This document shows positions 1,995 through 20,782 of a DNA stretch of 33,047 nt, piece after piece. The translations under genes and the position numbers were made by a program. The notes beneath the pieces are model-generated. The model was not told the origin of the DNA. It ran no database searches and saw only the letters and a list, made by a program, of their open reading frames with translations. The stretch is from a virus, in IMG/VR virus record IMGVR_UViG_3300021414_000063, positions 1 through 33,047 of that record; one strand, given 5' to 3'. The stretch's first letter is position 1, and each line of letters starts with the position of its first letter.

Positions 1995-3977
1995 TTAGCC
2001 ACGTGCAGCTCTCCAACCAGTATAGACTGGCTTGGTGTAAGTTGCGATGTTGTAATTGTCATCGCCCATCATTATTGTTTTTGTATAGCTAAATAGTCCC
2101 TCATTATCTTCATTTAATAATTCAAATAATTCAACATTTGAAGTATCATTCTTCAAACTTAGCTGTGCCTTAAATGGCATATATTTCCCCGTGAGATTAT
2201 CAATATTGTAAATCTTGCCAAAATCAAATTCACCCTTAACAGATGTGCTAAAATTTTTGAATGGCTCTCTGTATTGATTTAAAATCGATTTGCTGGCGAT
2301 CTCCAATAATGGTTTAGATTCGTTTTTCCCTTCTCTAGCCCAATTTTGGGTGTAGGTGTAACCAGTTGATGTATTTAACATCAGTTGATTCGTATATCCA
2401 ATTGATTTAAACTCACCAAATAAAGGTTCGAACTCCGTATAAGGGTCAAGATGATTTAAGTCACTTATTAGCTTGTATTTTTCTCCTGTATACTTCGATG
2501 AATTTTTATAATCATACTTAATTGAAAATTCTCGTAACACCATATCATCATTACGCAACCCTGCTGAATTATTGAAGGGTGCAAATATGTAAACCTGCAT
2601 ACTGGTATAAGTTGCATCGTAAATTGGTATTACATTTATTTCATCCACGAAAAAATAGTCCTGTCGCCAATTACCTCCGATCCTTCTATAAATAGCTGGA
2701 TAGCTACCATCGGGTGCTTGAACTTTAATATAATTGAATGAATTTGACCATTGATAACTACCATCAGCATTCTTATATAGCCAACTAGTATTAGTTGGAG
2801 AAGTTATTTTAATCGCAATACGAAGATTTGCTGAATGTCCAATTCTCAATTTAATAGTATCAACATTTCCGATAAATGAATTAAAGTTGTTTACCAGAAA
2901 TGAAAGGTTAGGACTATTAGCATTTATACTTCCATCGTTATCATTACGTGTGTTAATCTGCAATATTGAATCACTTCTGGTATTACCTGTTTTTGCAACT
3001 GATAAACCATTGTTAACCCAAAATTTAGGTGTGCCACTGTCCCATTCAGTAAATTTTGAGTTTAACAATAATTCATCAGCTACATTGCATTCATTATTAA
3101 CTGTCAAAGATTTAAACGGGGTTTGATAGGTAAAATTAGCATCATTATTGACAAACCTTAATGCACTATTCCTACCGATAGTTGATGTAATATTTGAAGT
3201 TGTTACTGCGTTTGAGGTTGAAGAAGCACTATCAAAAGAAATGTTATAAGTCCTTCTAATTAGGTTACTTTGAAGTTTATAGTTAACTCTTTCAATAAAA
3301 TATGTACCCTCCTTGTAGTAGATGTAGGCATTGTAAATCTCTAAAATCGATTTTAAAACCTCACTACAATTATTTACATCTGTATCATTTTTTAGGTAAA
3401 CAAACGGATTGACAAACACCCTATTTAGTGCTTCGTTGCTTGCATTATTTTTATCGATTCTACTCTCATATAAATCTATAGATGAAACTAACTGTGTTCC
3501 ATTTCTCAATCTGCTTAAACAAGCTAAAATAGCCTCTATTTGGGTCATTTTATTTAGGTACAAACTTCCAATTGATGGTTTGAAATCCAAAAATTTTAAA
3601 TCACCTAAACCATCAGTTGCACGTATTGTAACCAAGTAAGGTAAAGGCATAAAAGGCTCATTGTAGTTATCTTGGATAACATAACCACTCCAATACAAAG
3701 CACCATTCTTTAATATTTCAATTTTGAAATCATTCTTATTTGCTTTTACGATTTCGGTAAACTGGTAATTGTACTTAGCATAAAATGAAATGGCACATTC
3801 AGAACCTCTTATTGTTTCAAATTTGTTTTCACCGCCATTGTAATTGATTATTACTGGCTCACCCCCCATCACTAAATCAGTAACAGCAGATGCATAATCC
3901 TTCTGTAAAATGCGAACCTTATAATTAATACCTAATTCAGATGAAAATTCTGATGTATATTTAATTCCGTATGCCAT
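1995..3977 (-). CDS. putative tail-tip/baseplate protein with inserted carbohydrate-binding-like domain
   Basis: 660 aa, translationally coupled to the tape measure gene: its ATG shares one base with the tape measure stop (TAATG). Position directly after the tape measure and before lysis is that of distal tail or baseplate-hub proteins. Residues about 1-135 form a beta-rich domain (YKVRILQKDY ... DNYNEPFMPLPYLVTIRATDG) that I associate with a tail-associated family of Bacteroidota phages. Residues about 301-480 look like an inserted carbohydrate-binding domain of the kind that begins with LLxNSxF ... P..W. The C-terminal part (about 490-660) resumes the tail-like pattern. No peptidase or hydrolase motif is visible. 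Role as hub or receptor-facing tip is inferred from position. Confidence 0.7.
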   Translation of the reverse strand: MAYGIKYTSEFSSELGINYKVRILQKDYASAVTDLVMGGEPVIINYNGGENKFETIRGSECAISFYAKYNYQFTEIVKANKNDFKIEILKNGALYWSGYVIQDNYNEPFMPLPYLVTIRATDGLGDLKFLDFKPSIGSLYLNKMTQIEAILACLSRLRNGTQLVSSIDLYESRIDKNNASNEALNRVFVNPFVYLKNDTDVNNCSEVLKSILEIYNAYIYYKEGTYFIERVNYKLQSNLIRRTYNISFDSASSTSNAVTTSNITSTIGRNSALRFVNNDANFTYQTPFKSLTVNNECNVADELLLNSKFTEWDSGTPKFWVNNGLSVAKTGNTRSDSILQINTRNDNDGSINANSPNLSFLVNNFNSFIGNVDTIKLRIGHSANLRIAIKITSPTNTSWLYKNADGSYQWSNSFNYIKVQAPDGSYPAIYRRIGGNWRQDYFFVDEINVIPIYDATYTSMQVYIFAPFNNSAGLRNDDMVLREFSIKYDYKNSSKYTGEKYKLISDLNHLDPYTEFEPLFGEFKSIGYTNQLMLNTSTGYTYTQNWAREGKNESKPLLEIASKSILNQYREPFKNFSTSVKGEFDFGKIYNIDNLTGKYMPFKAQLSLKNDTSNVELFELLNEDNEGLFSYTKTIMMGDDNYNIATYTKPVYTGWRAARG

Positions 3978-6460
3978 TATGAAGTTCTTAACTGTCTTTT
4001 GCTGTGATTATTAAGCACACCCACTAATTTATCACCTTGAATTTCAAAGTAAACCTGACCACCACCAGAGCCACCAACATCACCTAACATTGATTTAAGT
4101 GAGTTTAAAGGTGCTACAACTTCTGGATTACCTCTACCAGCAGATGGATATTCTCCAAAAATCGCATTAGTCGGGCTTGACACAATTCCACCTTTAGCGA
4201 ATGCTGTTTGTTTTTGTTGTTTTCCACCTCCAAGTAATCCAGCAAATGCACCAGCAGCAACTTTTAAAGCAAGCCCAGCAGCTATTGCTGCAGGTGCAGC
4301 AAATAAACCAGCACCTGGAACAAGTAGTGCAGCGTCCAATTTAGATTTAACCAAAGCAGCAACACCATACTGTAAAAGCATATCACCAAATTGTGATAAG
4401 AATTTCCCGAATGCACCAATTAAACTTTGACCAAATGCTGCTATTACGTTACCACCTGTGGCAAATGCTTCACCAATTGAGCTGAATGCATCACCTAATC
4501 CACCAGCAATACCATCAGTTATTAATCCTGTAAATTGAGTATTAAAATTTTTTGCTAGTCCTAAAATCTTCTGAAAATCTTTATCAACGCCAACACTCTG
4601 AATTTTAGGTAAAGCGATCTTAGCTTCTGATGTTTTAGCTTTGCTGTCGCTAACCTTATCACTAAATCCTTTAGGTAGTTGTAATAGATTATTATCCTGT
4701 TGAAGTGCCTGTAATTTCTTGATTGATGATGATAATGGGTCAACACCATTTTTAATTAAACCATTGATAGCATCTTGATATGCCCCTATTCTGCTGACAG
4801 CTTTTTCATCAAAACTTTTCCCAAATTCAATACCAATCTGCTGAAGTTTAATTGCTAAATCTTTGTATACATCTGCGATATCTTCCGCTCGTTTTTTCTC
4901 ATCAGCGGAAAGTGTTTTCTTATCATCAGTTTTCTTTGTTATAGTCGGTGCATCAGATTTAGCAACCTCTTTGTTAAAGTCTTTTACTGCTGTAGTTGCC
5001 TTTCTAACTGGTACTGATAAGAAATCAAAAGCTTTAGCGATACGTTTATTAGCATTCTCAAAACCTGCTGCAATATTATTTGCACCAATCATTTTGAAGA
5101 AACTTGCAAGCGTGTTGTTCAGCATAGTTAAACCACCCTTAACAACAGATAGAATACCATTCCAAATAGATATGGCAACAGTTTTCAACCCTTCCCAAGC
5201 ACCCGACCAATCACCTTTAAGAACCGAACTAAATACTTTAAACCATCCAGAAATGACACCTAATACAGTTGAAATTACACCCTGAATAATTGTGAAAGAA
5301 CCTTTAACAGCACCAATTACGTTACTTCCAATGGTATTCCAGATTGAGATAATATAGCCTTTAACAGTATTGAAAATTGATTTTAAAGAATCCCACCAAT
5401 CACTGGCATAACTTACAATAGCATCAAACAATGCTGAACCCTCACCACTAACAAAATATGCTTTAATTGCATCCCAATTGGAAATGATTGCATAAGCAGC
5501 AGCAGCGATCGCTGCAACAACCAATGTTACAGGGCTTGCTAAAGCAGCAAAACCAACCATCAAAGCAGGTAAAACAGTTCCAATAAATACGCCTAGTGCT
5601 GCAATAATTGGTGGTAACACAATTGCAAAAGCTGCAAATGCTAATGTTATTTTTTGTGTTTGCGGTGATAAAGATTTAAACCACTTTGTAACCTCTGATA
5701 AACCATCAACTATTTTATCACTAAATTCGGCTATATCTAAATTATTATTGATGATTTCGCCTAATTCCGCTAAGTTGGAAAATACACCATCTTTTAAATT
5801 CTCGAAGGCTGCCTTTACACCACCCGCTGCTTTAGGCAATTTTGATAGACCGTTTACAATAGCATCCGCAACTTGACCAGAAGTGATTCCTAATTCTTTT
5901 AATTCATCCGAACGAGCAGTTCCAAATGCTTCTTTGAGTAACGGTGTTACCTGTGGAATAGCATCTTTTATTATATTAAGGTCTTCCCCAAGTGGAAAAT
6001 CCGTATTAGCTAATTGCGATAGACCATAAACTGCTCTTTCGAATTGGTCTGTACTACCACCAACAGTAGCAACAGCATTACCAAATGCCATTATTGATTT
6101 CTCAGCCTTTTCTGCAGTGAAACCGATTACTTGAAGATTCATTGAACCTTTAGTAACTTCTTGTAACCCAAGAGAAGGTAGTTTTGCAATCTCTTTTAAT
6201 CGTACAAATTGCTTTTCAGCTTCTTCTGCACTACCAGTAATTGCAGTCAGACCATTTTTTAATGATTGAAAATCACCGAAAGCTTTAATGGCTGCACCAC
6301 CTAATGCAGCTAATGGTAGTGACACGTAGGTTGACATTGTGCCACCAAAATCTTTCATTTGGTTACCGACCTGTTTTAACTGGTCTTGTACTCCCTTTAG
6401 TGCTTGTTGAAATCCAGAATTATCACCATCAAATATGAAATTTAAAGTATTATCTGCCAA
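3977..6460 (-). CDS. tail tape measure protein
   Basis: 827 aa. The N-terminal part (about residues 30-260) shows the phage tape-measure domain, including FGDFQSLKNGLTAITGSAEEAEKQF, the LPSLGLQEVTKGSMNLQ segment and the NTDFPLGEDLNIIKDAIPQ segment. Hydrophobic stretches at about 270-330 and in the last 180 residues (alanine/glycine rich) are typical. The protein sets tail length and is ejected with DNA; at the usual 0.15 nm per residue 827 aa would correspond to a tail near 120 nm (inference). The start is TTG at 6460: no in-frame ATG is nearby and the N-terminus MADNTLNF fits. A terminator-like hairpin lies between the chaperone gene and this start. Confidence 0.93.
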   Translation of the reverse strand: MADNTLNFIFDGDNSGFQQALKGVQDQLKQVGNQMKDFGGTMSTYVSLPLAALGGAAIKAFGDFQSLKNGLTAITGSAEEAEKQFVRLKEIAKLPSLGLQEVTKGSMNLQVIGFTAEKAEKSIMAFGNAVATVGGSTDQFERAVYGLSQLANTDFPLGEDLNIIKDAIPQVTPLLKEAFGTARSDELKELGITSGQVADAIVNGLSKLPKAAGGVKAAFENLKDGVFSNLAELGEIINNNLDIAEFSDKIVDGLSEVTKWFKSLSPQTQKITLAFAAFAIVLPPIIAALGVFIGTVLPALMVGFAALASPVTLVVAAIAAAAYAIISNWDAIKAYFVSGEGSALFDAIVSYASDWWDSLKSIFNTVKGYIISIWNTIGSNVIGAVKGSFTIIQGVISTVLGVISGWFKVFSSVLKGDWSGAWEGLKTVAISIWNGILSVVKGGLTMLNNTLASFFKMIGANNIAAGFENANKRIAKAFDFLSVPVRKATTAVKDFNKEVAKSDAPTITKKTDDKKTLSADEKKRAEDIADVYKDLAIKLQQIGIEFGKSFDEKAVSRIGAYQDAINGLIKNGVDPLSSSIKKLQALQQDNNLLQLPKGFSDKVSDSKAKTSEAKIALPKIQSVGVDKDFQKILGLAKNFNTQFTGLITDGIAGGLGDAFSSIGEAFATGGNVIAAFGQSLIGAFGKFLSQFGDMLLQYGVAALVKSKLDAALLVPGAGLFAAPAAIAAGLALKVAAGAFAGLLGGGKQQKQTAFAKGGIVSSPTNAIFGEYPSAGRGNPEVVAPLNSLKSMLGDVGGSGGGQVYFEIQGDKLVGVLNNHSKRQLRTS

Positions 6461-6529: not shown

Positions 6530-6820
6530 TTACGCTTTGTTTATTTTTCCGTACTCTCGAGCGAGACGTTCAAAATCTTCTTTGGTTGGAAGGTCTTTTT
6601 TCTTGTCAATTACCGTATCTGATGGTAATCGAATGAGTTCTTCAGGCGTTAAGTGATTGGCTGAATCCATTTGGATGTTTAAAAGGAATGCTGTTTGCAA
6701 TCTCATTCTTTGCCATTCTCGTTCATCTTTGAACATATAACCTTTTGAGATGTAGTGGTATTCATTGTAGGTAATGCTGTAAAAGTCTTTTAAACTCATT
6801 CCGATCTCACCTACTGCCAT
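6530..6820 (-). CDS. tail assembly chaperone, -1 frameshift extension (gpT-like)
   Basis: 96 aa counted from an ATG at 6820, but the frame is open upstream through 6844 and lies in the -1 frame of the preceding gene, whose last codons are a run of nine A. A -1 slip there joins the two ORFs via IEFVECLGMAVGEIGMSLKD, a segment resembling the second half of siphoviral tail assembly chaperones (lambda gpGT type). The real product is therefore probably a G-T fusion of about 231 aa made at low frequency, which recruits tail tube subunits to the tape measure. Free translation from 6820 is possible but I see no ribosome binding site. The stop is 69 bases before the tape measure start. Confidence 0.8.
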   Translation of the reverse strand: MAVGEIGMSLKDFYSITYNEYHYISKGYMFKDEREWQRMRLQTAFLLNIQMDSANHLTPEELIRLPSDTVIDKKKDLPTKEDFERLAREYGKINKA

Positions 6821-6840
6821 TCCCAGACACTCTACAAATT

Positions 6841-6852
6841 CTATTTTTTTTT
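6841..6852 (-). other. predicted -1 ribosomal frameshift site (A9 then TAG)
   Basis: On the minus strand nine A (6844-6852) precede the TAG stop (6841-6843) of the gpG-like gene. Both the P-site and A-site AAA codons can re-pair after slipping back one base. The -1 frame stays open into the downstream ORF: 6844 and the ATG at 6820 differ by 24 bases, a multiple of three. I did not identify a downstream stimulatory structure. Confidence 0.8.
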
Positions 6853-7227
6853 AGAATCTTTAGGTGCTTTGTCCATATCGTTATTTGATTGACTTAAAGC
6901 TTTACCGCTGATTTGAGTTTCTAAAAAGGCTTTGAAAATTCCTTCATATTGCTCTTTTTCAATTTGCCCGAAGTCATTGTATAATTTGAAATAGTTTACC
7001 TCGCCAACTATGGTATTTATCAAGTTGTAGTTACTGATACCAGCATAAAGCAAATCAACCAATAGGTCAAAAGCTTTTACGGGGTCTTCATCGATACCTT
7101 GAAAGAGTTCACCCAAATCATTTAGTGTAATACCTCTTTTTTCTGTTAGCAACTTGATAGAATACATACCGAATTGTACCCCAATTCTATCACCATTTAA
7201 CTCCAAAAACATTAATCCCTTTTGCAT
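6841..7227 (-). CDS. tail assembly chaperone (gpG-like)
   Basis: 128 aa. Position between the tail tube gene and the tape measure, the acidic helical sequence (GITLNDLGELFQGIDEDPVKAFDLLVDLLYAG at about residues 34-65), and the frameshift arrangement with the next ORF identify it as the G-type tail chaperone. It keeps the tape measure soluble and helps tube polymerisation. The C-terminus ends KDSKKK, with the last three Lys codons and stop forming the slippery A9 followed by TAG. The start has a good Shine-Dalgarno, AGGAGAG, seven to eight bases before ATG, which is unusual for this host group. Confidence 0.85.
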   Translation of the reverse strand: MQKGLMFLELNGDRIGVQFGMYSIKLLTEKRGITLNDLGELFQGIDEDPVKAFDLLVDLLYAGISNYNLINTIVGEVNYFKLYNDFGQIEKEQYEGIFKAFLETQISGKALSQSNNDMDKAPKDSKKK

Positions 7228-7256: not shown

Positions 7257-7664
7257 TTATGCTGAAGCAGCTACAGATAATTTACCAGAACCTTTAAAGT
7301 TCACTGAATAGGTTACAACCTCGCCATTGTCACCAGTAATTTCGTATGATTCAGCGTAAACAGTACCACTATAAACTACATTGCCAGTGGTTGCTGTCTT
7401 TGGTTTAAATTGTACGTTTAAAAGTGTACCATTGATGATTGCGTCACTGAATTGGTCTGTTGCACCCCATACCGCTAAACCTTCTGTACTTAATTCCCAG
7501 GATTTAATTGATGGAATAAATTCTGTGAAAGCACCATCACTATCTTTGGTAGTCGAATCAGCTAATTGCTGTGACATTTTGAATGTTGCACTACGTGAAT
7601 TTGCAACTGGTACAGCACCGATATAAACCATAAGGTCTGTGCCTAAAAATTTTGTATTTGCCAT
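7257..7664 (-). CDS. major tail tube protein
   Basis: 135 aa, close to the size of TP901-1/phi13-type major tail proteins. Conserved features are the TTKDSDG loop (about residues 38-44), IKSWELSTEGL (53-63) and the C-terminal ITGDNGEVVTYSVNFKGSG, which with the beta-rich pattern match the tail tube fold. It should polymerise as hexamer rings around the tape measure. The gene is preceded by the recurrent CTATTTAT element (7678-7685), so it likely starts a transcript that continues into the chaperone and tape measure. The same domain recurs at the N-terminus of the 1823-aa protein encoded at 10363-15834. Confidence 0.92.
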   Translation of the reverse strand: MANTKFLGTDLMVYIGAVPVANSRSATFKMSQQLADSTTKDSDGAFTEFIPSIKSWELSTEGLAVWGATDQFSDAIINGTLLNVQFKPKTATTGNVVYSGTVYAESYEITGDNGEVVTYSVNFKGSGKLSVAASA

Positions 7665-7775: not shown

Positions 7776-8048
7776 ATGCCTGCAAAGTATTTACCAGTTA
7801 AAAATGATAACAAGGAAGTCTTTGACATCATTGATGTAGATTCAGTCGTAGTAATACAAAACCATAAAGATGGTTGTATGGTCGTTACTTTAGGTGCAAT
7901 TGAAGGTTATAACACCTATGAGTTGATAATCTCCTATAAAGAAATCAAAAGGATATTTACTGAAGATAAAGTGGAGTTTTATGAGTCGAACGACTTATTA
8001 TTCTTGGTACGCAAAACTGGTGATGAACTTAAACCTCATCTTAACTAA
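7776..8048 (+). CDS. hypothetical cytosolic cargo protein (90 aa)
   Basis: Family not recognised. 90 residues without signal peptide or membrane segment; mixed beta/alpha, acidic, with a central VVVIQNHKDGCMVVTL. It is on the strand opposite to the phage late genes, immediately downstream of the tail tube promoter region, and is followed by a lipoprotein gene after one base, so the two form a small operon. A possible -7 box TATATTTA (7764-7771) ends only four bases before the ATG, which suggests a leaderless or nearly leaderless mRNA. Opposite orientation and own promoter suggest expression in the lysogen. Function unknown. Confidence 0.7.
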   Translation: MPAKYLPVKNDNKEVFDIIDVDSVVVIQNHKDGCMVVTLGAIEGYNTYELIISYKEIKRIFTEDKVEFYESNDLLFLVRKTGDELKPHLN

Positions 8049-8049
8049 G

Positions 8050-8385
8050 ATGAATAGACTCCGATTTTTTGTCATTATATTACTGTCTGCCTTACTGCTC
8101 CAATGTGCAAGTCAAAACCCAAAAATCGTGTTATTGGAAGAAAGAAGTAACAGACTCACACCTGCACATTCATTAAGTTATTCATCAACTTTTGTTATTG
8201 AAAATTATTGCGAATCTAATAGATGTGCTAACCGTATCGATAAATTAGTATTGAAACATTATAAGAAAACTAATTATAGTAAACACGTAATCGGACTTTA
8301 CAAAGAATCAGAGACAGTCAATTTGAAAAACTTCAAAGAGTTTCCAGAGTTGGCTAAAAAAGGGATTTGGACGATTATGTTCTAA
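8050..8385 (+). CDS. cargo lipoprotein, probably frameshifted at the 3' end
   Basis: 111 aa as written. I start at the ATG at 8050, one base after the previous stop, because it gives a typical lipoprotein signal: MNRLRFFVIILLSALLLQC, with lipidation expected at Cys19; the longer in-frame ORF from 7981 only overlaps the upstream gene. The mature part contains two further Cys (NYCESNRC). The reading frame ends abruptly in GIWTIMF at 8385. After AAAAAAGGG (8356-8364) the -1 frame is open for 45 more codons, from 8364 to 8501, and encodes a plausible continuation (YVLNYTFYQGKLIGKNKY). The stop of that frame overlaps the stop of the convergent gene. Frameshift mutation, sequencing error at A6, or slippage are all possible. 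Function unknown; surface exposure is inferred. Confidence 0.7.
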   Translation: MNRLRFFVIILLSALLLQCASQNPKIVLLEERSNRLTPAHSLSYSSTFVIENYCESNRCANRIDKLVLKHYKKTNYSKHVIGLYKESETVNLKNFKEFPELAKKGIWTIMF

Positions 8386-9214: not shown

Positions 9215-10327
9215 TTAACTAACTGCAAGCCCATCCGTACAATTTCCTGTCTGTACAACCGCACCGTTTTGGATTAATTCCATTCCAGCGTATGAACCAG
9301 AACTTGTATAGTAAATACCGTAATCCGCAAGGGTATTCTGAACAACAGCAACACCAGTGTATTTATATAGCTTACCATCTATAGTATTCTTCCAAAGAAC
9401 AACATCATTAGCAGTGTCGTGTATATAATCTGGTCTTGCTAAGAATGAACAAGTTGAAGTATAGTCTCCACTTGAATAAGCTAAATATCTCATTTCAAGG
9501 TACGGTGGAATGAAAAGTGGGTCATCGCTGTTCCAATCGTTAATACTTCCTGATAAAGAAATTACACCATCAGCATTAACGAAATACCACATACTACCAT
9601 CAGCATAATATCCAGCAGGTGGTTTTAATGTGCCAGCTTCGTTAGTAAAAATTTTAGAATCACTACCAATATTCAAATAGTAAGTTCCAATATCATAACC
9701 TCCGGTAAAATTCTGCCAAGCTGTTGAACCATAACTACCAGATGCTAGAGTTATTGATGCTCGACCAATAGTTATAAAACCACTGTGACCGATATAACGA
9801 CCTTCAACATTTTGATTGTAGGCTGTAAAATCATATTGTTGACCAGTTACCACACCTTGAATTAAAAACTGCTTAGTCTCTTGAATACCACCAGCAGGGA
9901 TTGCATAACCAGCACTAGCAGCACCTTCAATGCCCCAATCATCAGTGATGACATACCAAGCACTTTTGGCTGTTAAATTTAATAAAACACCATTTTGGGT
10001 AACCTTATCTAATTGCACTGTGACGTGACCAGTTGTGTTTAATCCAGCATCGGTATAATTACACATTACACCGTTATTAAAACTTCTTAAACTTCCAATT
10101 CTGGACGTTGAATGATGGAAGTAATTATCACCATCGAGATATACCAAGCCAGTGAACCCCTCATCACCATCTGAATCTCTAGTGATTAAAAGTTTATCCA
10201 GATAGAATCTGTTTTTTAATTCCCCTTCCAAATCATTTGGAATCGCTCTGGAATTTGCAACCTGTTGACCAGTTGCACTAATTGTATTTATATTTTTATT
10301 TAAGTATGCTGATGCTGGTGCTGCCAT
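9215..10327 (-). CDS. putative tail fibre or receptor-binding protein
   Basis: 370 aa, rich in Gly, Ser, Thr, Tyr and Asn with few charges, as expected for a beta-structured virion surface protein. I do not recognise a named domain. It begins MAAPASAYLNKNINTISATGQ without a signal peptide; the C-terminal half holds a repeated aromatic pattern (YYSTSGS-like, WYFVNADG, WKNTIDGKLYKYTG). It follows the giant tube-fibre gene by 35 bases, has a CTATTTAT-like element (ATATTTAT at 10341-10348) before its ATG and two terminators after it, so it can be made separately and in excess. A role in adsorption together with the large fibre is inferred from position and composition. Confidence 0.65.
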   Translation of the reverse strand: MAAPASAYLNKNINTISATGQQVANSRAIPNDLEGELKNRFYLDKLLITRDSDGDEGFTGLVYLDGDNYFHHSTSRIGSLRSFNNGVMCNYTDAGLNTTGHVTVQLDKVTQNGVLLNLTAKSAWYVITDDWGIEGAASAGYAIPAGGIQETKQFLIQGVVTGQQYDFTAYNQNVEGRYIGHSGFITIGRASITLASGSYGSTAWQNFTGGYDIGTYYLNIGSDSKIFTNEAGTLKPPAGYYADGSMWYFVNADGVISLSGSINDWNSDDPLFIPPYLEMRYLAYSSGDYTSTCSFLARPDYIHDTANDVVLWKNTIDGKLYKYTGVAVVQNTLADYGIYYTSSGSYAGMELIQNGAVVQTGNCTDGLAVS

Positions 10328-10362: not shown

Positions 10363-13300
10363 TTAGCTAATCCAGATACAACCATTTTCTGGTGCTGCTG
10401 GTGCAGATGTTGGAATGACCATTTTTGAAGTTGCTTTCAAAGTAGGTGCTTCAATTGAATTTGAGGCTTTTGCATTACCTTGCGTAGTGGCATAGAATGC
10501 TGGGGTTTGCCTGTTGCCAAAATGGAAGCCTATTGCATCATAGCCATTTGCACCGCTCCACGCTTGGTAGTAACCAATACCGTATTCAACATCGGAGTTT
10601 AATCTCCAAATATTGTTGTGTCCTTGGTGAAAAGTACTATTAGAAAAACCGCCATTAGTACCAGTTGCACCTATTACAGCCCCATAAAAATTAGTTTGCT
10701 TATTTGTATTATCAAATCTGGCAATTCGGTTGTTCCAACTACCTAAAGTAACTTTACCATTTGCACTAGGATCAAGATTAAAAGTGTTATTCCATTCTGG
10801 GTTTCCATTCTCCCAATCATCACCAAATGAATGTATTGTATGACTGTTAACCCCATTTTGATGAAATCTAATTCGACTATATCCTCTACTACCCATAATA
10901 TCAAGACCACCATCATCGCCACCGTGACCAACTCTAGCATTGTTTTCTACTAAAAATGCTTTACCACCGTAAATCCTCACCCATTGTGAATCTACCATAT
11001 GAATGCCGCCACCATAAGTTTCGTTAATCCAACCACTGCCCCCATTAGACCTGAACCAGTTGGAAGCGTAAACAGCATTTGCTAAACCACCATCATAGCC
11101 TGCAAATATTCTTTGCCCACCTATTGCAAAATCGGATAACCAATTACCAGTATTATCACAATACGAACCCCATCCACCGCCAGCATTTAGAAAACCAACA
11201 CGATTTGAATTACAATGAATGGTTCGTCCAGTTTCATCACCATCACGCATATAAATATTTGATGATGTTTTGCCCTCCCCAACGAATAAATCATTGGTAA
11301 CAAATAAACTTCCATAACCATCAAGCTTCATTGAAGTAAAACGAGAATTATTTGTTCCAGATTCCATCCAAGCAAAACCACCAGTACCACCACCTTTTTG
11401 ATTGATAAATGATACACCACCAAACATACCACCGATGTTCAATGGTTCATTCCAATTTAGATGCAACCCTTCAACATCTACTGTATGATTACCAGTGAAA
11501 TGTGTACCACCATAAGCAATAAACCTGTTTGATGTTATTATATTTCCTGCTGAATTTATATCACCATTTGCTTGTAAGTTCTGTAAGCGTAAACTTTCTC
11601 GACCAGTTCCAGGATTGTTAATTAATCTAAACCAACCATCACTATCTAAAGCAATTTGGGATGCAACAACACCAGACCAGTGGAAAGATAAACGTGGTTG
11701 TGTTTGACCACCGCCTTGATGAAATGCTTCACGTATAATCAATCCTGCTTCATTGTAACCACTTGAGGAACTGTTTGCACCTATTTCAACTCTACCAACG
11801 ATAGTACTACCTCTGTTTGCGGCAATTTGTAATGTTGTATCTTCATAAGCAGAAGCACCTAATGATAAGAAGTTTCTTATGCCAGCTTGATTTACTTTTC
11901 TTAGATAACCATCCGAACCATTATAAGCATACAAAGCTGTTGGTGTAAATCCTTGGATAGTAGTATCTGTCGAATTAAAGAATGTAGCAAATAAATGTCC
12001 TGCATTATTTCTTTGGGCTAATGAGTAAGCTGCTTCTGCTGTATCAATGCTTTCACTTCTGTAAGCCAAAGAACCTAAACCTAACCAACTTTGAATCTGA
12101 CCAACATTTGAACGACCAACAACACCATTATTACCCATAGTAATAACATCGTTAATACTTGAAACACCATCATCAGCCCAATTTACAGGCGTACCATTCC
12201 AATTTGCAGAATTGACTGCTTCACCAACTTTAACTGCTGCACCGTGATTGGAATGCAGCCACCAGTTTACACCATCCCAAGTATTTTGTAACCAATAAGT
12301 GCCGTTGTGTGATGTTGATTGTAGTTTAGTAATAGTGTTTCTATAAGAATTACCATCCACCATATAGTCAGATTTCACATCCCAAGTACCAGAACGACTA
12401 TCGTAAAAACCTCTCGTAACATCATCGTATGATGTTAAACCGAATCCCCACCATAGTTTCAAACCTAAATTGAATTGACTGTATGAAGCGTTATCGTGAC
12501 CACCATTATAGAAATAGTTTGATGATGCACTGTGTAAACGTAAAACATTATTTAAAGTAGTTTCACCCCCTACGGTTAAACTACCATTTACCCTTTGGAA
12601 ACCATCAACTTCAAAACCTGCAAAATAATTATTAGCACCACCACCATAACGGTCACCTTTTCTTGCTGAATTTGTGTTTGCACTTTCCAAATACAATACT
12701 TGTGAACCAGTTGCATCTAATCTGAATTGAGAACCACCAGAACCATATCTATGAAACGCTAAAGTTGGTGACCTATCAGTGTAGATATTACTGCCACTCG
12801 TTACGATTTCAATTGATGACGTGGTTAATGCTGCATCAGTCCAGCTATAACCATTGATTGAACTATCACCTCTCGAAGCAAATAATTTATCAGCGTAAAC
12901 TTGGTTAAACGTTGGTGTTTGAAAAGTATTGAGATTTAAGAAACTTCTAATGCTAGATGCATCATTCAAGTTATACAAAGCTTGGTTGTTTGACCAATAA
13001 GTTGTTACCCCATCACCAGCAGAATTAAAACCAGTATCGCTATCACCAACAGCTAAAGAGATTACAGCATTAGCACCATAAGCATCATTAGCATTTACGA
13101 ATAATCTACCATAGGTTTTTAGGTTGTTAGTAGTTGTTAATTCATTAAACCTCACATCATTGTTTGATGATAGTCTTTGATTTTCCAAAGGTTGATAATT
13201 ACCAGCTATTTGATAGGTAACGTTATTCCACCTTCCAGTACTTGAATTATATTGTAAACTTTGACCATTAGCCAGATTACTAAAAGCAACATCTTGTAAT

Positions 13301-15834
13301 GATGCCAGCGTTGTAATATCTCCTGCTGGGTTACTTCCATTTGAACCAGCAGCACCTAACCATATACTTTGATTATTTCCAGATGCAGAAGCAGGTATGA
13401 TTAATTCATCAATCGCACGTACTTTTTGAATATCAGCTTGACTACTTATATATAAATAGTTACCATAGTATTCATTGGCAGAAACTTTACCTGTCCTACC
13501 ATTAATTTCTACTGTTGGCGCTTCAGTGAATATCGATAAAAATCTAACAGCAGATGATGGTCTGATATCAATATATTCTCCATTACCTTTGATGTAAGCT
13601 GTGTTTGCAACACCTTGAATATTCCAATGTGATGTGTCTATACGACCAGCAGATAAATAATCGGCAACCCCAACATAATTAAACGTGACATTACTATTTG
13701 TACTCAGACGTTGATTTTCCAAAGGTTGGAAAATTGAAGAACCTTGTGCTGCAGTAATCCAATTACCATAGTTACCTAAATCATTTACAAATTCTGATAA
13801 GTAGGCTTTTGATTGATATGCATTAGTACCCAATTGACTATTTGTAGTAACTCTATCCCAAGAGCCGTAAGTACCACCAGCTTTAGTTCTTGTCCAAAGT
13901 GAACCACTAACACTGAAAACCAATTGGTTCGCATAGGCTGGATTGTTATTAGTTGAAAACTGAATACCTTGCCCCCATTCATTAATTCTTGGTGCATTGG
14001 TTGGGTTTAAATCAGCACCTTCCAATAAAGCAAATCCAGAAGGTGTATCGAAATCGTAAACTTTTGTGGTATTCCAGTAGTTAGAATTACCTGCTGAATC
14101 TGCAAATCTTGAACGACCAACAACAATTTCATATGTATTTGTACCATTCCAACCCATTAAACGAATAGGTAAACCCCAAGAAGCCGATTGATTCCAACTA
14201 GCACCATCAACTAAAAAATCTGGTGTAGAAGAAATAGTACGTCCATCTGGTGCTGTTCCTGCTGATGCATCAAATAACACGTGACGATTGCCATACTGAT
14301 TCCAACGTAAATATTTTGCAACTCCAATATCAAATGCCTTATCAATGATTGAAGTGTTTACTTCAACACCATTGATACTATTTCTATAGGCAAAAGAACC
14401 CAATCCCAAATCATTTGAAAACTGACTTAAAGCAGTTGGTTTGTTTGTAATATTTGACCAAGCAACACTTGATGCGCTTGCAGCATTACCAGATATATTT
14501 ATTGCCCAATTACCATTTGCATTTGAACCATTAGCCAAAGCATAATCAGCAGCAATAGCAAACTTTTTGTTTAACCATTTACCAGCACCAGCATTATAAA
14601 CTAAGCTTTCACCATCAGCTAAATTGGTCAGCGCAACATCTTGTAAATCCTTCAAATACGAAATGATCGAAGGATTACCACCACCATTATTAGTTCCAGC
14701 TTCGCCCAACCAAATACTTTGATTTGTAGAACTTGAACTTGCTGGAATTACTAATTCAGATGATGCTTTAATCTTACTAAATACAACATCATTTCCAGTT
14801 GACAAACGTTGGTTTTCTAAAGGATGGAATTTAGAATCAGCAGTTGCTTTATTATAGACATCAGCAACATTTGCTTTTGCGTTTAAACCATTTTCTACGA
14901 AATTAACCGAAGCCAAACCATTGACAATTGATGCATTCACATATCCAGAATCATTAAACAGTTGTGATACATTTATTGGTATTAAAGGCTTATTAAATAG
15001 GTCGTTATAATTACCGCTAAATAAATCTGGCTTATTTCCAACGATAGACCAATCAACAGACATCAAATATCTGCTATCAGCTTCACTTTTATTAAAATAG
15101 TAATCACTTAAATATTGATTCCCTACATAATTTCCTTTGGGCTGAAATTTACTATCAGATTGAATGGATGTGTAATAACTAGATAAGTCTGCGCTACCAG
15201 AGCCATTAGTTTGATTAAAAAAGGTTGAATAAACAGACCCATCACGAAGTTTAACGTTTAGCGTTGTTTTGTTTCCAACGGTATTAAATCCAACTTCTGT
15301 TAATGTTTTGTTGTACGCATCAAACCAATCACTTTTATTTGTTTCAGTAATATTAAAAGATGCAGAGCCACGAAATACTGGGTCTGTTTCAGTCTTTAAA
15401 TAACCAGATTGAGTTGGTGTACCTTGATTAGTAAAACCTAGTTGACCAATTCCTTTTAATGTACCAGAATGACTAGCTACTTCACCAGATTCTGCATTCA
15501 ATTCGATTGACGATAAAGCAACTTCGCCCCAAAATGTATGTGCAAACCCATTTTGAATAACACCAAATTGGATAAAGAATGGTTCACTATTTTCAAATTG
15601 AGACAGAAAATAGGCAGTGTTAAATTTATCATCATCATAGGAGATAAGACCATCAAACTCAATTGACCAATCTTTTATTGATGTTAAATTTTCCTTCCAA
15701 CCATCAGAATCTTTAGTGGTAATATCAACTAAATTTTGTTTTAGCTTTAACGCACAATTCTTACTTAGAGCAATTGGATTATTGTGTATGTCGTATAATA
15801 GAAATTCAGAACCTTCAAAAATGTTTCTAATCAT
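10363..15834 (-). CDS. giant tail-tube/fibre fusion protein (1823 aa)
   Basis: The first 140 or so residues are a paralogue of the 135-aa tail tube protein: TTKDSDG, SIKDWSIEFDGL and SGEVASHSGTLKGIGQL line up with the same blocks in that protein. The remainder is a long fibre: a WSIVGNKP/WSNITNKPTALSQFSND type spaced motif, three copies of PLENQRLS (near residues 336, 701 and 880), and a repeat with VIP.S......SIWLG at about 369 and 819 that ends the protein as CIWIS. Asn, Gly and Ser dominate. It is neither a secreted protein nor an enzyme by visible motifs. The start overlaps the tail terminator gene by eight bases and carries the Shine-Dalgarno AAAGGAGAG. A role as fibre-bearing tube subunit displayed on the tail is inferred. 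Confidence 0.85.
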   Translation of the reverse strand: MIRNIFEGSEFLLYDIHNNPIALSKNCALKLKQNLVDITTKDSDGWKENLTSIKDWSIEFDGLISYDDDKFNTAYFLSQFENSEPFFIQFGVIQNGFAHTFWGEVALSSIELNAESGEVASHSGTLKGIGQLGFTNQGTPTQSGYLKTETDPVFRGSASFNITETNKSDWFDAYNKTLTEVGFNTVGNKTTLNVKLRDGSVYSTFFNQTNGSGSADLSSYYTSIQSDSKFQPKGNYVGNQYLSDYYFNKSEADSRYLMSVDWSIVGNKPDLFSGNYNDLFNKPLIPINVSQLFNDSGYVNASIVNGLASVNFVENGLNAKANVADVYNKATADSKFHPLENQRLSTGNDVVFSKIKASSELVIPASSSSTNQSIWLGEAGTNNGGGNPSIISYLKDLQDVALTNLADGESLVYNAGAGKWLNKKFAIAADYALANGSNANGNWAINISGNAASASSVAWSNITNKPTALSQFSNDLGLGSFAYRNSINGVEVNTSIIDKAFDIGVAKYLRWNQYGNRHVLFDASAGTAPDGRTISSTPDFLVDGASWNQSASWGLPIRLMGWNGTNTYEIVVGRSRFADSAGNSNYWNTTKVYDFDTPSGFALLEGADLNPTNAPRINEWGQGIQFSTNNNPAYANQLVFSVSGSLWTRTKAGGTYGSWDRVTTNSQLGTNAYQSKAYLSEFVNDLGNYGNWITAAQGSSIFQPLENQRLSTNSNVTFNYVGVADYLSAGRIDTSHWNIQGVANTAYIKGNGEYIDIRPSSAVRFLSIFTEAPTVEINGRTGKVSANEYYGNYLYISSQADIQKVRAIDELIIPASASGNNQSIWLGAAGSNGSNPAGDITTLASLQDVAFSNLANGQSLQYNSSTGRWNNVTYQIAGNYQPLENQRLSSNNDVRFNELTTTNNLKTYGRLFVNANDAYGANAVISLAVGDSDTGFNSAGDGVTTYWSNNQALYNLNDASSIRSFLNLNTFQTPTFNQVYADKLFASRGDSSINGYSWTDAALTTSSIEIVTSGSNIYTDRSPTLAFHRYGSGGSQFRLDATGSQVLYLESANTNSARKGDRYGGGANNYFAGFEVDGFQRVNGSLTVGGETTLNNVLRLHSASSNYFYNGGHDNASYSQFNLGLKLWWGFGLTSYDDVTRGFYDSRSGTWDVKSDYMVDGNSYRNTITKLQSTSHNGTYWLQNTWDGVNWWLHSNHGAAVKVGEAVNSANWNGTPVNWADDGVSSINDVITMGNNGVVGRSNVGQIQSWLGLGSLAYRSESIDTAEAAYSLAQRNNAGHLFATFFNSTDTTIQGFTPTALYAYNGSDGYLRKVNQAGIRNFLSLGASAYEDTTLQIAANRGSTIVGRVEIGANSSSSGYNEAGLIIREAFHQGGGQTQPRLSFHWSGVVASQIALDSDGWFRLINNPGTGRESLRLQNLQANGDINSAGNIITSNRFIAYGGTHFTGNHTVDVEGLHLNWNEPLNIGGMFGGVSFINQKGGGTGGFAWMESGTNNSRFTSMKLDGYGSLFVTNDLFVGEGKTSSNIYMRDGDETGRTIHCNSNRVGFLNAGGGWGSYCDNTGNWLSDFAIGGQRIFAGYDGGLANAVYASNWFRSNGGSGWINETYGGGIHMVDSQWVRIYGGKAFLVENNARVGHGGDDGGLDIMGSRGYSRIRFHQNGVNSHTIHSFGDDWENGNPEWNNTFNLDPSANGKVTLGSWNNRIARFDNTNKQTNFYGAVIGATGTNGGFSNSTFHQGHNNIWRLNSDVEYGIGYYQAWSGANGYDAIGFHFGNRQTPAFYATTQGNAKASNSIEAPTLKATSKMVIPTSAPAAPENGCIWIS

Positions 15835-16285
15835 TTTCCGCCTCTCCTTTCAATTGTTCAATGAAGTTGCTAAATGTGATAAGCTTTCGAATAACAAAGC
15901 CACCAGTGCTTTCTGATTCCAAATATTTAGTAGATACCAATTGAGTTGATGTAATATTCCAATTGTCATCTAAATAGAAATTGTCTTTTGTATAGACCTT
16001 TTCAAATATTTTGTTAGCTATGTCATCACTCAACTTTTTACCACCACCCAACTTGAAGCGTGTAACTATATCAAGTATAATTTCCGCTTCATAACCGAAC
16101 GATAAGTTATCGTTGAATGGGGTAATTGAAGTTGATGAGAGTATTATGAAAGGTGCAACAGCTTCTGCTGGCACAGTATCGTAAACAGGAATATTTTTAC
16201 CTGCGATTACAGAGATTTGATTAGCTAATTTTTGAAAATAAGCGGTTCTGTATATTAAAGAAGGGTCTTTTGCAAAGTCGTTCAT
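15827..16285 (-). CDS. tail terminator/completion protein (DUF3168-like)
   Basis: 152 aa. Size, position after the HK97 gp10-like gene and before tail tube-type proteins, and the pattern (VYDTVPAEAVAPFIILSS near residues 34-51, then a beta-alpha-beta core with VTRFKLGGGKKLSDDIANKIFEKV) fit tail terminators that cap the tube and join it to the head. The last 8 bases overlap the start of the giant tube-fibre gene and contain its ribosome binding site, so the two are coupled. A CTATTTAT element lies five bases upstream. Divergent from it is the P-loop cargo gene. Confidence 0.75.
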   Translation of the reverse strand: MNDFAKDPSLIYRTAYFQKLANQISVIAGKNIPVYDTVPAEAVAPFIILSSTSITPFNDNLSFGYEAEIILDIVTRFKLGGGKKLSDDIANKIFEKVYTKDNFYLDDNWNITSTQLVSTKYLESESTGGFVIRKLITFSNFIEQLKGEAEND

Positions 16286-16374: not shown

Positions 16375-16806
16375 ATGGAATATTTATTATTTTCTGGTGC
16401 TCAAAACACTGGTAAAACATCATCTATAGTTAAGTATAAAAATTTATTAATTAGCAAATATGGATATACTGAAACAATTATAGACAAACACAATTGCTTT
16501 ATAATTGAAAATTCTGATAAGAGAATTTTAGTTTATCCTCATACAGACACTCCCTATCTCATTGATGGTCTAGTAAAACATTTATCTGTAGAGCAAGTCA
16601 ATTATGTAATTACTGCTTGTAGAAGTGTTGGTGATACAGAACGTGATTATCTAATAAATGCTCTTAAAATTCACGACCAATTTCTCGAAATTCCTTTAGG
16701 TAGAATGGTAAGAGGAGCAAAAAGAACTAATGCAGTACGTTGGTATTTAAATAGCGTTCTCGTAGTTGCAGAAATAATAGGGAAAACAGCACCATTTAAT
16801 TTCTAA
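16375..16806 (+). CDS. P-loop NTPase-like cargo protein (143 aa)
   Basis: A Walker A motif, GAQNTGKT (residues 8-15), follows an N-terminal beta strand (EYLLFS), the classic start of a P-loop fold. A later strand, NYVITACRS (about 76-84), sits where Walker B would be but lacks the acidic residue. At 143 aa it is short for a complete kinase or AAA protein and I cannot assign a substrate. It is on the plus strand inside the leftward head-tail gene block, with its own host-type -7 box, and its stop overlaps that of the opposite gp10-like gene (CTAA). Expression in the lysogen, for instance as exclusion or nucleotide-metabolism cargo, is possible but not shown. Confidence 0.75.
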   Translation: MEYLLFSGAQNTGKTSSIVKYKNLLISKYGYTETIIDKHNCFIIENSDKRILVYPHTDTPYLIDGLVKHLSVEQVNYVITACRSVGDTERDYLINALKIHDQFLEIPLGRMVRGAKRTNAVRWYLNSVLVVAEIIGKTAPFNF

Positions 16807-17246
16807 AGCTTCAATAAATCCCTTAAGCTTTTTCTTAAATTTTTTAATTCATCATTTAATGCTGGGTGAAAATATGGATGTGGTTTAATATTGACTTGTC
16901 GAATCCCTAAACCTTTAAACTGGATAGCATAAGTCTCGAATCCTGCTGGTACATCAACTTTGTCACCCGTACCATATTCAATATATGGGCTATAATGTTT
17001 ATTGAAGCCAACTTCAAAACCATAACCATCTGGTGTCATTTCAAGAAATCCAGACTGCATAATGCCACCTACTGATTCAGCAAATGGTGTAGATGATAAG
17101 TTTGATTGTGCTTTGCTTAATATGTTGTAAGCAGAAGCGTGTAAGGCTTCTTTAACATCATCAGTACCTCTTTTCTTTAGTTCATTTAGATTCTTATTGA
17201 TGTTTTCAAGTCCTTCAACTCGAATTGAAAAATTAGGTCTAGCCAT
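16803..17246 (-). CDS. HK97 gp10-like head-tail joining protein
   Basis: 147 aa. It begins with IRVEGLENINKNLNELKKR and ends with PYFHPALNDELKNLRKSLRDLL; these, with YSPYIEYGTG (about residues 75-84), are hallmarks of the HK97 gp10 family. The family acts at the neck/upper tail during head-tail joining. The start overlaps the stop of the head closure gene by eight bases, indicating translational coupling; the stop overlaps that of the convergent P-loop gene. Confidence 0.85.
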   Translation of the reverse strand: MARPNFSIRVEGLENINKNLNELKKRGTDDVKEALHASAYNILSKAQSNLSSTPFAESVGGIMQSGFLEMTPDGYGFEVGFNKHYSPYIEYGTGDKVDVPAGFETYAIQFKGLGIRQVNIKPHPYFHPALNDELKNLRKSLRDLLKL

Positions 17247-20245: not shown

Positions 20246-20782
20246 TTGAAGCAGCCAAAACGAAAACCCGAAAACCCGTCTCAAGTAATAAGACATCAAC
20301 AAGCTGAAAATTCTGATTCGAACGAGCATAATGAATCTTTAGATGATGCACTTCAAATTATTGAAGCTGCAGAAACTGTAGATCCAAAGATATTTGCTGG
20401 ACTTCCTAAAGAAAAGGTTGCAAGAGCTTTTTCGATAGGAATGAGTATGTCTAGAGTCCATTCAGGACCACTTCCACACCCAGATACTGTCGAAGGATAT
20501 GGAAGGGTTATAAACAATGGAGCTGAAAGAGTAATGTTGATGGCGGAAAAGGAGCAAGCGGCACGTCTTGAAGATCGAGCTATTATTCGTGATAGAAGTC
20601 TCAATCAATCAAGAAATGGTCAAATCTTTGGCTTCGTTTTATGTATGACCGCAATTTTGGGAGGTATATACCTAAGTGCCAATGGGATGGCAACAGCTGG
20701 AGTAGTGGCAATCATTGGTGCATTAGTTGCTTTAGCGGGAGCATTTATTTACGGCAAATATCAAGAAGGTAAGGATAAATAA
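20246..20782 (+). CDS. DUF2335 family membrane protein (cargo)
   Basis: 178 aa. The signature HSGPLPHPDTVEGYGRV followed by GAERVMLMAEKEQAARLE (about residues 72-108) and two C-terminal transmembrane segments (about 127-145 and 149-169) match DUF2335, a family of uncharacterised predicted inner-membrane proteins. The first 60 residues are polar and acidic, probably cytoplasmic. The start is TTG at 20246; an in-frame stop at 20228 and the absence of nearby ATG leave no better choice. It lies with the 63-aa gene in a plus-strand island between the prohead protease and the MuF gene. A role in phage exclusion or envelope stress is a guess based on context only. Confidence 0.85.
   Translation: MKQPKRKPENPSQVIRHQQAENSDSNEHNESLDDALQIIEAAETVDPKIFAGLPKEKVARAFSIGMSMSRVHSGPLPHPDTVEGYGRVINNGAERVMLMAEKEQAARLEDRAIIRDRSLNQSRNGQIFGFVLCMTAILGGIYLSANGMATAGVVAIIGALVALAGAFIYGKYQEGKDK

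Follow-up and report, generated by a model that had tools for sequence, protein, structure and literature searches.

A diverged tail tube paralogue fused to exchangeable long fibers in a rare group of siphophages: a candidate anchor ring, possibly at the neck

Why would a phage encode two tail tube proteins (TTPs), one plain and one fused to a very long fiber, and where in the virion might the fused copy sit? The question arises from a 33-kb siphophage-type record, here called the window (the whole stretch of 33,047 nucleotides that was analyzed), whose late genes follow the standard order and are encoded by the minus strand. A preliminary description had placed a fused open reading frame (ORF) at 10363-15834, naming no strand, with a separate plain tube protein beside it. 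Both are present. The fused frame lies on the minus strand, the plus strand across the same interval being full of stops, and the plain gene matches the same two families as the fused N terminus; no further TTP-like ORF was found in the window record. The head part of the late genes runs terminase, portal, MuF, protease, capsid, head-tail adaptors, HK97-gp10-like, and terminator. The tail part follows with fused TTP-fiber, 370-aa protein, small cargo region, plain TTP, and two chaperone-position genes, and the series ends with tape measure, 660-aa tip protein, lysozyme, and holin. Names for the lysis genes and for those upstream of gp10 were assigned by eye, on the basis of sequence and order.

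16803..17246, minus: HK97-gp10-like neck/tail completion protein (PF04883, phrog_5)
15827..16285, minus: tail terminator gene (phrog_176, tail terminator, 3.4e-11), with an 8-bp overlap with the fused gene
10363..15834, minus: fused TTP-fiber ORF, ATG start, 1,823 aa, no internal stop
15403..15834, minus: stretch encoding aa 1-144, with the N-terminal tail-tube domain at aa 1-~137 (Pfam PF06199, phrog_1407, AlphaFold TTP fold)
15145..15424, minus: conserved linker, aa ~138-230, motif GYLKTETDPVFRGSASFNI... (BLASTP of fused proteins)
10363..15144, minus: exchangeable fiber, about 1,590 aa, with T4-type long-tail-fiber modules near aa 1515-1648
9215..10327, minus: 370-aa protein (MAAPASAYL...) just downstream of the fiber, with relatives in four other loci
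7257..7664, minus: plain tail tube protein, 135 aa (PF06199, 58.5 bits; phrog_1407, 2e-25)
6530..7227, minus: pair of small genes flanked by plain TTP and tape measure, at the tail-assembly-chaperone position (assigned by position; phrog_16333, function unknown)
3977..6460, minus: tape measure protein, 827 aa (PF20155 TMP_3, phrog_58)
1995..3977, minus: single putative tail-tip protein, 660 aa (phrog_33803, phrog_23570)

The N terminus of the fused protein belongs to the tail tube family. Residues 28-132 match Pfam PF06199 (Phage_tail_2) with an E value of 2.9e-11 and 44 bits, above the curated cutoff of 23.8; phrog_1407 ("major tail protein") covers residues 19-166 at 2.2e-19. Aligned over their whole length, the fused and plain domains are 33% identical (57.8 bits, pairwise E value 2e-16), a sequence similarity far beyond chance. 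Judged by these comparisons, the fused domain is an old, diverged paralogue of the plain TTP; the earlier statement that it copies the 135-aa tube protein is right about paralogy and overstated as to copying. The remainder of the ORF is fiber, as had been stated earlier, with matches of residues ~1515-1648 to long-tail-fiber proteins of T4-like and other phages (E values down to 6e-14) and a weak match of residues 1092-1150 to T4 gp36, below the Pfam cutoff.

An AlphaFold model of the N-terminal 230 aa, made with an alignment of 50 related TTPs, reached moderate confidence (mean pLDDT 68 overall, mostly 60-85 within the TTP part). It shows the TTP beta sandwich at residues ~8-136, with a helix at 73-82 and the long beta2-beta3 loop at 38-48. 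Residues ~1-146 could be aligned to the solved tubes of monocin, RcGTA, 80alpha, SPP1, and lambda, with Z scores of 8.7-10.8 over 127-139 residues, the best match being the monocin tube 8qhs_A (Z 10.8, rmsd 4.2, 138 residues). Domain alignment and structure prediction, which the preliminary description had named as its check, thus find that the modeled domain keeps both the TTP fold and the long loop that links rings.

We found the fusion in nine distinct loci, the window and the eight below, with total lengths of 971-1,823 aa; L111, identical to L110, and L116, identical to L100, stand outside this count.

L003 (IMG/VR): fused protein of 1,540 aa, TTP domain 93% identical to that of the window
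L004: fused protein of 1,017 aa
L008: fused protein of 1,206 aa
L080, prophage of Pedobacter sp. ok626: fused protein of 1,245 aa
L081, prophage of Pedobacter sp. MC2016-24: fused protein of 1,006 aa
L100, third genome of the Pedobacter family: fused protein of 971 aa
L110: fused protein of 1,259 aa
L118: fused protein of 1,056 aa

The fusion is not an assembly artifact, since relatives carry the same join on independent contigs and in bacterial genomes. Between the window and L003, dN/dS is 0.07 for the fused TTP domain (0.041/0.556) and 0.09 for the plain TTP (0.036/0.418), ratios by which the fused domain is under strong purifying selection; together with the nine loci, this selection rules out a genome artifact or a chance ORF. 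A complete plain TTP is present in eight of the nine loci, and L008 has its start only, the contig ending inside the gene. Nor is the plain TTP a degenerate copy, being conserved along with the chaperone-position genes and the tape measure.

The carriers are metagenomic phages and Pedobacter/Sphingobacteriaceae prophages. The fusion was present in 3 of 400 genomes of the Pedobacter family, and in a phylum-wide sample of Bacteroidota, TTPs of this family occurred in 7 of 395 genomes, with one fusion, the Pedobacter one already counted. By this sampling of sequences, fusion carriers are a rare, coherent phage group, and the host of the window is probably a Sphingobacteriaceae-like bacterium. Among cultured phages, the fused TTP domain matched only TTPs from phages of Listeria, Streptococcus, and Terrisporobacter, with identities no higher than 31%, whereas matches to the plain TTP came from Paenibacillus and Geobacillus phage TTPs; at the E-value limit used, these domain matches included no close relative of the fused domain from a cultured phage. 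Elsewhere in this TTP family, fiber-free paralogues occur side by side: two or three adjacent TTP genes in L011 (5562-6930), L021, L022, L047, L057, L060, and L061, and a 280-aa double TTP next to a single one in L041 (4238-5487). Tube paralogues seem common in the family.

The fused domains have a common history. In a tree of 50 sequences, the seven then known formed one clade (support 100/100, stem 1.25), nested in a larger clade (99/97) that also takes in the plain TTPs from these phages. A second tree, of nine fusions, eight plain TTPs, and the outgroup L117, again gave a fused clade with 100/100 support, on a stem of 2.02. By the branching of both trees, the fused copy had a single origin within this phage group, and independent repeated fusions are ruled out by the single clade. 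Mutual similarity is higher among the fused domains than among the plain TTPs. The simplest reading of these sequence patterns would be one duplication, then strong change, and then strong constraint.

Behind the tube domain, conservation soon gives way to exchange. BLASTP comparisons among the first seven fused proteins collected showed homology over about aa 1-230, a part shared by all of them; the linker at aa ~138-230 is the last part common to all fiber types, and between-type homology ends at about aa 230-270. Beyond it lie two unrelated kinds of fiber, the beta fibers of the window type versus the helical-repeat fibers of the Pedobacter type. These alignments show a conserved anchor of ~230 aa followed by interchangeable long fibers. 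The 370-aa protein downstream of the fiber occurs in the beta-type relatives (L003, L004, L008, and L110), had no family match, and is perhaps a fiber-tip adhesin.

Does the fused protein carry host binding? In L117, a relative without the fusion, several genes lie between the tip protein and the lysis genes. In fusion phages with sequence there, lysozyme follows the tip protein directly, with no other fiber gene at that place; in the window, the tip gene is followed by lysozyme-like and then holin-like genes. Because the fibers are exchanged as modules, and because lysozyme directly follows the tip protein, unlike in L117, gene content suggests that host-binding duty rests on the fused protein. 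The tip protein, which was modeled poorly (four-sequence alignment, mean pLDDT 40.8), includes in its central part (298-492) a weak carbohydrate-binding jelly roll in this low-confidence model. It may therefore bind sugars, and the fiber need not be the main receptor binder. Furthermore, five relatives carry large fiber- or adhesin-like genes between the head-tail adaptor and gp10-like genes:

L008:3393-5827, large fiber-/adhesin-like gene
L080:4971-7219, large fiber-/adhesin-like gene
L081:2771-7558, large fiber-/adhesin-like gene
L100:4030-7289, large fiber-/adhesin-like gene
L118:2883-5494, large fiber-/adhesin-like gene

Some of them have a deacetylase-like FDDG motif, recognized by eye, and additional neck or head adhesins are a possible identity. 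Fiber-like genes among the neck genes of several relatives, taken with the jelly roll of the tip, argue against the fused protein as the exclusive host binder.

The late operon also takes up unrelated cargo genes, which recur at a few fixed gaps in the window, L003, L100, and L008, namely, between the gp10-like and terminator genes, around MuF/protease, and beside the plain TTP.

window: 16375-16806, 20246-20782, and 7776-8385, cargo
L003: 3402-4577 and 7749-9468, cargo
L100: 193-1350, cargo
L008: 6302-7195, cargo

Two cargo genes encode Schlafen/AlbA_2-type proteins matching the PADLOC candidate PDC-S50, and the gene at 20246-20782 of the window is a DUF2335 gene. The gaps may be defense hotspots inside the virion cassette. 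At 7981-8385, between the fiber and the plain TTP, the opposite strand of the window carries a small ORF resembling a lipoprotein (LLLQCAS), for which no family match was found and which is perhaps a superinfection-exclusion gene.

What, then, is the fused protein for? We consider it very probable that it forms a dedicated anchor ring with an exchangeable adhesion fiber. In the mechanism that we propose, a tail tube paralogue, duplicated once, would have been turned into a fiber anchor, and six fused TTP domains would form one ring. This ring would use its long loop to stack onto the final ordinary TTP ring, turning its changed N terminus toward the tail terminator, so that the fibers would project as a collar from the head-proximal end of the tail and serve host binding. 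One feature fits the anchor ring awkwardly: fibers are usually trimeric, and a ring of six subunits would then carry two of them.

That this ring sits at the neck, just under the terminator, is the position we prefer, at about even odds on the present sequence evidence. Between terminator and fusion, the spacing ranges from -8 to +6 bp across the nine loci. The distance from fusion to plain TTP varies from 113 to 2,698 bp across the seven loci measured (2,698 bp in the window); in window-type phages, other genes intervene, and the plain TTP keeps the company of the chaperone-position genes and the tape measure. In L117, which has no fusion, the gene next after the terminator is that of the TTP. 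As a pointer to the neck, gene order falls short of proof, because the neck passage structure (NPS) gene of the 936 phages lies upstream of mtp and that of TP901-1 after the baseplate genes.

The residues expected to meet neighboring rings point the same way. In tail tubes, the long loop links rings by binding the N terminus of the next ring, the two lying on opposite faces (PMC9022992). In published models, the tube-protein N terminus faces the terminator at the head end (PMC10747895; compare AFP, PMC8718954), and it makes most of the terminator contacts of the major tail protein in the TP901-1 model (PMC10747895). Residues 1-10 have an identity of 0.76 within fusions versus 0.33 between fusion and plain; those of the outgroup L117 have 0.57 to plain and 0.27 to fusion. 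The plain TTP thus retains the ancestral N terminus, the fused one being derived and highly conserved. For the long loop (38-48), identity is 0.54 between fusion and plain versus 0.57-0.66 within groups. The contrast is only suggestive, with weak statistics from 17 related sequences (P = 0.064 for N terminus versus loop and P = 0.026 for loop versus rest). Nevertheless, it favors a neck ring, since a ring below the terminator needs an ordinary long loop and may have a special N terminus, as was found; a tip ring would need the opposite pattern, and an interspersed ring would need both parts ordinary.

One of the two readings in the preliminary description was a mixed tube with fibers along the tail, the fused subunit being a minor component at intervals among plain rings. 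We think this unlikely, and it is not our first choice. A precedent exists in the SPP1 tube, which has unextended (gp17.1) and extended (gp17.1*) subunits at 3:1 (PMC8718954), with 936 TpeX as a further parallel, and the modeled TTP fold, with a long loop conserved to about the degree seen among plain TTPs, would suit a place among ordinary rings. Yet the fused domains group in one divergent clade with a long stem, their N terminus is derived, and the gene is tied to the terminator, not to the plain TTP. Moreover, chains of 1,000-1,800 aa every few rings would presumably crowd the tail.

The alternative offered there, a specialized last ring, fits better as far as the specialized ring goes, for which the divergent clade, the derived N terminus, and the terminator linkage all speak; it is the tip position that fares less well than the neck. 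A distal ring that joins the tube to the 660-aa tip protein and carries tail fibers would agree with the frequency of TTP-fold rings at tips, where fibers are usually located, and with the absence of another fiber gene after the tip protein in fusion phages. However, the fused gene is flanked by terminator and TTP, at a distance from the gene for the tip protein. A distal ring also predicts an ancestral N terminus, which would meet plain long loops, and a drifting long loop; the reverse was observed. In addition, the tip protein may itself supply such a ring, its N-terminal 120 aa forming a beta sandwich with one short helix in the low-confidence model, possibly a tip ring of its own. We rate this distal placement improbable as well. 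Least probable of all is a TTP-like domain outside the tube wall, decorating the exterior or binding the neck through other surfaces, for although segments 65-72 and 83-96 differ most from the plain TTP, the long loop and several core strands show the conservation of tube proteins.

A neck ring would be one form of a broader, tentative proposal that we hold with some doubt, namely, that a duplicated tube subunit became a dedicated ring bearing the main host-recognition fibers at a distance from the tip, either at the neck or repeatedly along the tube, and that phages freely swap the fiber behind an unchanging TTP anchor. If confirmed, it would reveal a simple route for moving or adding receptor-binding fibers: duplicate the tube gene, change one face, and attach any fiber. 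The fused TTP would also allow a natural test of the TTP face that contacts the terminator.

That baseplate and terminator rings reuse the tube fold is well established. In the open-access portions of the literature, we found no equivalent with two tube proteins or a TTP-fiber fusion, nor any description of full-length fibers joined to a tube paralogue. The attachment had been called unlike the usual side-fiber arrangement, which is true in detail and too broad in general, decorated tubes (SPP1 gp17.1*, 936 TpeX) and neck fibers (936 and TP901-1 NPS) being known. Like the fused protein, the 936 and TP901-1 NPS combine a conserved N-terminal anchor with a variable long fiber and host-binding ends; the 936 gene lies directly upstream of the major tail gene, and immunogold labeling places its product between head and tail (PMC4759559, PMC6669499). 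The fused gene likewise lies between head and tube genes. However, the NPS anchor is BppU-like and wraps the portal/adaptor in the TP901-1 model (PMC10747895), whereas the fused anchor is a tail tube paralogue by Pfam, PHROGs, and predicted fold. SPP1 gp17.1* and 936 TpeX are, similarly, TTPs extended at the C terminus by a cell-binding part and accompanied by a plain TTP (PMC8718954, PMC4759559), but they are frameshift products of the plain TTP gene with small Ig/CBM domains; the fused protein comes from a separate, diverged gene (two ORFs, 2,698 bp apart, 33% identical) and bears a fiber of about 750-1,600 aa behind its anchor. The Phage_tail_2 tube proteins monocin MttP and RcGTA g9 share the fold and long loop and are without the long fiber, and T4-type long tail fibers share distal modules but differ in anchor and attachment site. 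Taken together, sequence and modeled fold make the fused protein a member of the TTP family and of neither the NPS nor the frameshift-decorated tubes; by analogy, its nearest counterparts in working would be the lactococcal neck passage structures and the decorated tubes of SPP1 (gp17.1*) and TpeX.
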